A stretch of 64,000 bases of DNA. Origin: Arcanobacterium ihumii. Lineage in GTDB: Bacteria; Actinomycetota; Actinomycetes; Actinomycetales; Actinomycetaceae. Position 1 is the first letter of the stretch, and each line of letters opens with the position of its first letter. This document shows, piece by piece, positions 41,988 to 43,241 of the stretch. Under the pieces are notes generated by a model, which saw only the letters and a program-made list of their open reading frames with translations, was not told the origin of the DNA and searched no databases. The DNA lies in contig NZ_UWOS01000003.1 in NCBI RefSeq assembly GCF_900604515.1, positions 186,001-250,000 of the forward strand. The letters run 5' to 3'. Made by a program: the position numbers and the translations under genes.

Positions 41988-42770
41988 CTAGTCGAGAATT
42001 AGCCCGACCGCTAAGGCGACCATGCCCAAGGCTGAAATCGGCACAAAGATTCGCGCAATATTAGGTAAAATTTTACCCGCTCGGAAGATGTCCGTGACGG
42101 CACGCCTCGTGAGCTGGAATGAGGTTGGAACTGCAAAACCTACAAGCACGCCGCTCCACCAAGGAAGAGCGAGAATAAGAGCTGCGGCAATTCCCGCCAC
42201 AATACCATTCAACAGGGAAACGAACTCCAAGCTTCGCGTCGGGAAGGCATGGATAACAGAGACGACGGCAATGATCAGCGTCATCATAACCGTCACTTTA
42301 ATGCCATCGGTGAGATACGAGGTATGGATCCACAGCGAAAGTGCCGTCAGGAGCGTAATGCCGAGGTAGGTTCCTGCAATTTGCTCAAGGCGACGAAACG
42401 CATTTGCCGGCCTGAGCATTTCAGCGATGAATACGACGACGATCCCGAAGGCAGCTACGAGAGCTGTAAGTACCATTGATCCCCAGATACCCGCGGCTAC
42501 TAGCAGAAGAAATACGATCCCAAGCGCCGAATGCGCAGTTGAACGGTTAGGAAGGTTGAGGAGCGTTGTCCAGCCAATTATGAGGAGTGAGCCAAAAAGA
42601 ATTACCACTACGACCATGCCCCACGGCGCGGTAATTGCGCCGATGGCCAACAATGCTGCCGAAAGTATACTTGCTAGAGATCGAATGTAGGAAAAACTGA
42701 GTCCAGCAAATTCACCATCGTCAAGATTGTACGAAGCTTCGTCGCGCGGCTCATTGTTGTGGTCAGTCAC
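41988..42770 (-). CDS. Polytopic membrane protein of unknown function
   Basis: About 260 residues with a ~30-residue hydrophilic acidic N-terminus, then eight or so membrane segments (for example SLASILSAALLAIGAI, VVVVILFGSLLIIGW, MVLTALVAAFGIVVVFIAEM, VTVMMTLIIAVVSVIHAF, GIVAGIAAALILALPWW, ISALGMVALAVGLILD). I do not recognise the family; permease-like annotations exist for similar proteins next to the FABP-like gene. The start is unclear: GTG at 42770 gives a hydrophilic N-terminus, TTG at 42806 is also possible, and neither has a strong ribosome-binding site. The gene ends 11 bp before the barrel-protein gene, so it probably leads the ygfZ-dtd unit. Confidence 0.75.
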   Translation of the reverse strand: MTDHNNEPRDEASYNLDDGEFAGLSFSYIRSLASILSAALLAIGAITAPWGMVVVVILFGSLLIIGWTTLLNLPNRSTAHSALGIVFLLLVAAGIWGSMVLTALVAAFGIVVVFIAEMLRPANAFRRLEQIAGTYLGITLLTALSLWIHTSYLTDGIKVTVMMTLIIAVVSVIHAFPTRSLEFVSLLNGIVAGIAAALILALPWWSGVLVGFAVPTSFQLTRRAVTDIFRAGKILPNIARIFVPISALGMVALAVGLILD

Positions 42771-42934
42771 AGTGAAATTGTGCCACGGAATTACAGAGAG
42801 TAGCAATTACCTAGGAAAATTGCCCAGACTCATTAGTAATCTATCCCACAACTCACCCATAATTGAAGTATTTTCGACCGCACGTTTGTGCATTCGTATT
42901 CGGATTGACCGGAATACGTGCGGGTTTTCTATCT

Positions 42935-43100
42935 GGACGGAGTACCTCTTCTGGGTTACAGTTATGGCAAGACACCGGATCGCGAAAGCCCCGGGCTCCA
43001 ATAATTTGCCGCTACGAGCGGCCTTCGCGCCGACAGGCGCTCTCGGGTTCGGTGTCCTTAACTTTCGGGTGGGAACGGTCCGTTCCCACCCGATTTTCTT
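42935..43100 (+). ncRNA. Candidate structured RNA with own terminator
   Basis: The segment can fold as a rod: GACACCG (42971-42977) with CGGTGTC (43050-43056), CGCGAAAGCC (42981-42990) with GGCCTTCGCG (43020-43029) with one mismatch, an inner GCTC/GAGC (42995-42998/43016-43019), and an alternative hairpin GCGCC-GACA-GGCGC (43027-43040). An intrinsic terminator follows at 43066-43099. TTGACC at 42906-42911 with a weak -10-like TCTATC 17 bp on could start transcription near 42937, giving ~165 nt. It could be a free small RNA or the leader of phoU-pit. It fits no RNA family that I can recognise. Confidence 0.35.
43066..43092 (+). terminator. Rho-independent terminator after the candidate RNA
   Basis: 12-bp perfect arms (CGGGTGGGAACG at 43066-43077, complement at 43081-43092) with a 3-nt loop, followed by ATTTTCTT on the plus strand only. 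No plus-strand gene precedes it. Confidence 0.75.
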
Positions 43101-43241
43101 GGGAAGAACGTCCCGCCCAGCTCGGTAGTACAGGCAATTTTCGTTACAGCATCACGTGATTATGCACGAGCGGTAAACCCTTAGTGCAAAGTTGTTTTAT
43201 TCTTAGTTTGTCAATCGTTCACCTTTTGTTTAGGGGAAACT

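Follow-up and report, generated by a model that had tools for sequence, protein, structure and literature searches.

Within the window (the whole 64,000-nucleotide stretch of Arcanobacterium ihumii DNA that was analysed), a gap of 435 bp at 42807-43241 contains a structured element. On its 5' side the gap is bordered by a minus-strand ORF that resembles a membrane protein (41988-42806, -), lies beside the element in Arcanobacterium and has no Pfam match; on its 3' side lies a phoU-like gene (PhoU_div) from 43242, followed by Pit/PHO4 from 43868. The first-pass annotation had described this intergenic region and, within it, an outer helix GACACCG/CGGTGTC, a GCGCC-GACA-GGCGC hairpin and a plus-strand intrinsic terminator. 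We recovered all of these: the helix at 42971-42977 with 43050-43056, the hairpin inside the gap, and the terminator at 43065-43093 followed by a U-run, which is the sole terminator-like site in the scanned region. For the stretch 42935-43100 the folding energy is -74.7 kcal/mol (z = -4.3), which none of 200 dinucleotide shuffles equalled, and the 93-nt core taken by itself has a folding z of -3.7, with one shuffle equally good.

A BLASTN search with the gap sequence returned a match in 56 of 59 related genomes, nearly always through one core of ~90 nt (42968-43058) that is 78-98% identical in the relatives, while most of the flanks are not conserved. Bifidobacterium, Actinomyces, Cellulomonas, Microbacterium, Brevibacterium, Rothia, Kocuria, Propionibacteriales and others are among the matches listed in a pattern scan. 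A covariance model built on 30 sequences (R1) has a match in 393 of the 396 genomes of the order, with a single copy in almost all of them. Applied to a 296-genome sample of the phylum, R1 gives 27 matches, all 27 within the class Actinomycetia and none among the sampled genomes outside that class. The refined model (R2) matches 123 of 197 genomes of the class and 54 of 121 genomes of the Mycobacteriaceae (the mycobacterial-type family). In the window itself the covariance-model match spans 42966-43062 (95.4 bits), and the RNA core corresponds to 42971-43056 on the plus strand. The three genomes of the order without the RNA belong to a single genus and are reduced, at 0.8-0.9 Mb; at the other extreme, two or three copies are seen in some Mycobacteriaceae (six genomes).

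Our comparative analysis indicates one fold, in which a long clamp (P1), a helix of 2 bp (P2) and two hairpins (P3 and P4) are arranged around the junction CCCCGGG-YYCCA. In 77 diverse members, whose alignment was fitted to the model and so favours its structure, 97.7% of cells are paired against 78.7% after shuffling, and the covariation score is 0.551 against 0.169; no shuffle out of 500 matches any measure, slid controls stay at or below 0.121, and 16 pairs have changes on both sides. The first alignment, an unfitted one made with MAFFT, yields the same P1, P3 and P4. Covariation across relatives, which the first-pass annotation had named as the check on its reading, is strong for this fold as a whole.

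All parts of the fold lie on the plus strand. P1 pairs 42971-42981 with 43046-43056; every one of its 11 pairs has changed on both sides, and 98.7% of its cells are paired in the 77 sequences. P2 pairs AG at 42987-42988 with CU at 43040-43041, and both pairs change on both sides, with AG/CU, AA/UU, UG/CA and AC/GU covarying. RNAalifold had placed a three-pair hairpin in the CCCC region instead; we dropped it in favour of P2 because the AA variants break its outer pair (32 non-pairing cells) while AG/CU, AA/UU and UG/CA covary. The junction CCCCGGGCUCCA follows at 42989-43000, and its CCCC (42989-42992), GG (42994-42995) and CA (42999-43000) are invariant in all 77 aligned members. All members inspected keep the CCCGGG palindrome, even where, as in Streptomyces, the run is one C longer. 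P3 is the hairpin GCCGCU-ACG-AGCGGC at 43008-43022 (97.4% of cells paired, three of six pairs changed on both sides), the third base of its loop always being G. P4, CGCC-GACA-GGCG at 43028-43039, has 100% of its cells paired, three of its four pairs never vary, and its loop in most members is GAGA, GCGA or GUGA (GNRA). Could all this be an artefact, complementary strings without function in a GC-rich gap? Such intergenic stretches do readily fold, but the folding z of -4.3, the order-wide presence and the strong covariation leave this explanation a negligible probability.

Two departures from the common form may be recorded here. In six loci of one family (f96: L244, L249, L252, L253, L257 and L259) P1 is immediately preceded by a further conserved segment, TGGCGACAGCC(C)TTCGGG(G)CCCTCGC; this segment may form an additional hairpin at the 5' end of the RNA. 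Four genomes of two other families (f23 and f94) give weaker and longer matches of about 122-134 nt, and the length of these matches suggests a variant with an insertion.

The first-pass annotation had seen in the gap a set of mutually exclusive helices resembling a switching RNA. Complementary strings for the competing helix, CGCGAAAGCC/GGCCTTCGCG, do exist in the sequence, but comparative support for it is absent: 66.7% of its cells are paired against a shuffled mean of 67.0%, and we saw no covariation. With covariation confined to a single fold and absent from the competing helix, the switch reading is unsupported. The same annotation had offered, as one of two options, that the element is a conditional leader of the phosphate symporter operon, that is, an attenuator of phoU-pit. 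Indeed phoU-pit lies downstream on the same strand in the window, in many Actinomycetaceae and at Cellulomonas-type, Micrococcus-type and Brevibacterium loci. However, the RNA is kept without phoU-pit both within the genus and in whole families. At four Arcanobacterium loci that carry it, phoU-pit is not downstream (at one of them, L113, 5.6 kb downstream were inspected), and in Bifidobacterium, Microbacteriaceae, Streptomyces and Mycobacteriaceae it adjoins other genes. In Streptomyces it stands between a UvrD/HelD-like gene before it and a malic enzyme gene after it; elsewhere its neighbours are pabC-like or cell-wall genes. Moreover, nothing in the covarying fold makes the terminator conditional, and no alternative helix covaries. 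A riboswitch or attenuator leader would be marked by a consistent downstream gene and by two conserved, mutually exclusive helices; here the genes vary between lineages and within the genus, and no second helix is conserved. A dedicated phoU-pit leader is excluded on this ground, as the neighbouring genes vary even within the genus, and we give the broader idea of a conditional phoU-pit leader a very small chance.

The other option in that annotation, a free small RNA, is supported by a promoter and a terminator recognised at the sequence level, by the autonomous context and by class-wide conservation. The best sigma-A match upstream of the core (8/12, with a 17-nt spacer) has a -35-like box TGGACG at 42934-42939 (+) and a -10-like box TACAGT at 42957-42962 (+). 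At many Actinomycetaceae loci a box of the GTTAnnnT type lies at a near-equal distance upstream of the core. Arcanobacterium relatives show a like layout (TGGACG-N17-TAGAGT, GTGACA-N17-TAGATT); a generic promoter scan did not have the -35-like box at 42934-42939 among its calls. This TGGACG-N17-TACAGT promoter (42934-42962) would place the transcription start near 42969-42971. With the terminator at 43065-43099 (+), which the terminator scan resolves into a 13-bp stem, a 3-nt loop and TTTTCTT, the predicted gene comprises core and terminator at 42971-43099 (+), and a start at 42969-42971 would give a transcript of about 130 nt, rather than the ~165 nt first proposed. In relatives the position of the terminator is taken by hairpins of unrelated sequence, or P1 is itself followed by a T-run. 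Of 109 members, 44 have a hairpin plus T-run after the RNA, where shuffles give 20.6; counting P1 plus T-run as well raises the figure to 53 of 109, so that a recognisable terminator is not universal.

Upstream of the promoter, at 42880-42923 (no strand assigned), lie a near-palindrome CGCACGTTTGTGCA (42880-42893) and, ~30 bp away, a half site GGAATACGTGCGG (42911-42923). Strings resembling them occur at the equal position upstream of the RNA at five Arcanobacterium-type loci, and as judged from these sequences they are possible activator or repressor sites. The near-palindrome has a single exact copy in the genome, and its near copies are not clearly above a reversed control; we rejected it as the mark of a known regulon, there being no excess of copies in the genome.

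In many lineages the promoter is of another kind. The sequence GGAAY-N17-19-GTT is the consensus of SigR/SigH, and RsrA is the anti-sigma partner of SigR. We find the full consensus before the RNA at 25 of 81 loci, where chance would give 0.3%. Among further loci it is found at 34 of 47, including all 25 analysable Mycobacteriaceae loci; at three of the other nine (L244, L249 and L259) it lies farther upstream than usual. The form GGAAT-N17-19-GTT is present at all 25 of those Mycobacteriaceae loci, in most Streptomyces and in many Micrococcales. The window's own promoter has no ECF consensus match at proper spacing, and the genome to which it belongs does have RsrA (profile 73 bits; cut-off 62.5) and thus a SigR/RsrA system. 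Genomes of the Bifidobacterium-type family lack RsrA and retain the RNA, which implies that SigR control is not essential to RNA function and that the promoter is a lineage-dependent input. We would expect the input to differ: where the GGAAT-GTT promoter is present, levels of the RNA should increase under thiol-oxidative or related stress, while Arcanobacterium, with its sigma-A-like promoter and possible upstream control sites, probably produces it constitutively or under the control of a different regulator.

Taken together, we consider it likely that the element is a free-standing gene for a structured, trans-acting small RNA, and that together with its counterparts in the class Actinomycetia it makes up a new RNA family. 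The RNA looks like a widespread regulator or a housekeeping RNA. It would be made from its own promoter and end at its own terminator, with P1 holding it closed and the junction CCCCGGG-YYCCA, together with P3 and P4, presented to a conserved partner. Action in trans by way of the conserved core is the most likely mode, as the RNA keeps neither a fixed position nor fixed neighbours.

What might the partner be? Other C-rich small RNAs of Gram-positive bacteria pair with G-rich ribosome-binding regions of mRNAs, and the C-rich junction could do the same, repressing translation under stress. The CCCC and CA are invariant in a region that the consensus draws as single-stranded, the promoters in many lineages are of a stress type, and some Mycobacteriaceae have a junction (CCACCCCUUU) that forms a good duplex with an SD-like sequence (-12.8 to -14.3 kcal/mol). 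However, at the level of 11-nt complementarity the window's genome has no long mRNA targets at ribosome-binding sites, none of the 11 non-self sites complementary over 11 nt preceding a long ORF. Pairing with the consensus SD is no better than for shuffled junctions in three groups (mean z of +0.6, -0.1 and +1.5), on which we also rejected a generic anti-Shine-Dalgarno mimic, and the stems are as conserved as the junction. We regard mRNA pairing as a possible, tentative explanation. Since P3 and P4 vary as little in their paired bases as the junction does, and both pairing tests were negative, we lean instead, at about even confidence, towards a protein or ribonucleoprotein as partner of the small RNA rather than a set of mRNAs.

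As a matter of speculation, the CCCGGG palindrome could permit RNA dimers; for isolated 12-mers that contain it the duplex energy is -12.9 kcal/mol. A more ambitious proposal, which we advance as an outside chance, is that Actinomycetia possess a core RNA whose partner is a central machine (RNA polymerase or the ribosome) or else a global RNA-binding protein, and which possibly binds it as a dimer joined at CCCGGG. It would do for these bacteria what 6S RNA or a global RNA-binding protein does elsewhere, its synthesis being tied to thiol stress in many lineages.

An RNA found in 99% of the sampled genomes of the order, Bifidobacterium, Actinomyces, Microbacterium and Cellulomonas included, and yet without an Rfam family, represents a gap in basic knowledge. 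It is also present across Streptomyces and in many Mycobacteriaceae, and the covariance model provides a means of annotating it everywhere. The conserved SigR/SigH-type promoters offer a direct handle on its function in species that are genetically tractable.

How does the RNA compare with those already described? The first-pass annotation knew of no family with this pattern, and our searches agree: Rfam 15 has no match in the window at gathering or permissive thresholds (the best chance match has E = 0.57), nor in 10 relatives, nor at the Streptomyces loci. In the literature, mainly openly accessible full text, we found no description by core sequence or among SigR/SigH-dependent small RNAs. 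If this RNA has been sighted before, the best candidate is scr2952, reported to be expressed in S. coelicolor and conserved among Streptomyces (PMC8388888). It is named after SCO2952, and since SCO2952 is a HelD protein (PMC8655204) and SCO2951 a malic enzyme (PMC7494193), the Streptomyces RNA locus, flanked by a UvrD/HelD-like gene and a malic enzyme gene, fits SCO2952/SCO2951; the candidate match is one of name and flanking gene types. PMC8388888 states that the scr2952 family is in Rfam, but no Rfam model matches within about 7 kb of the Streptomyces RNA locus, and the text consulted mentions no link of scr2952 to other Actinomycetia or to the fold found here. We rejected RF02826 as scr2952, RF02826 being Scr6925.

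Among structured RNAs under SigR control, tmRNA (ssrA) is listed for Streptomyces as a member of the SigR regulon (PMC4921905); it has no sequence or structural relation to the RNA described here. The 6C RNA (RF01066) shares with it a C-rich conserved segment, an actinobacterial distribution and a free-standing gene. However, in 6C RNA at least six C stand in each of two stem-loops (PMC8388888), whereas the C-run of our RNA lies in the junction inside P1/P2, and there is no Rfam match. A parallel in general character is Ms1/scr3559, which is 6S-like and, as our RNA, actinobacterial, structured, widespread and encoded by an independent gene. One may then ask whether our RNA is the actinobacterial counterpart of 6S/Ms1 and binds RNA polymerase. 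It is near-universal, mostly single-copy, structured and stress-linked, and it is present in Actinomyces and Bifidobacterium, in both of which a search for Ms1 found none (PMC9130861). On the other hand, Streptomyces and Mycobacteriaceae have it alongside Ms1 (PMC9130861), and it has no Rfam 6S match. Its core of about 90 nt with four helices differs in length and fold from a rod of 200-300 nt with a central bubble, so that we think a 6S/Ms1 identity improbable. Ms1 is a molecule of 200-300 nt in another gene context, and the RNA at this locus one of about 90-130 nt.
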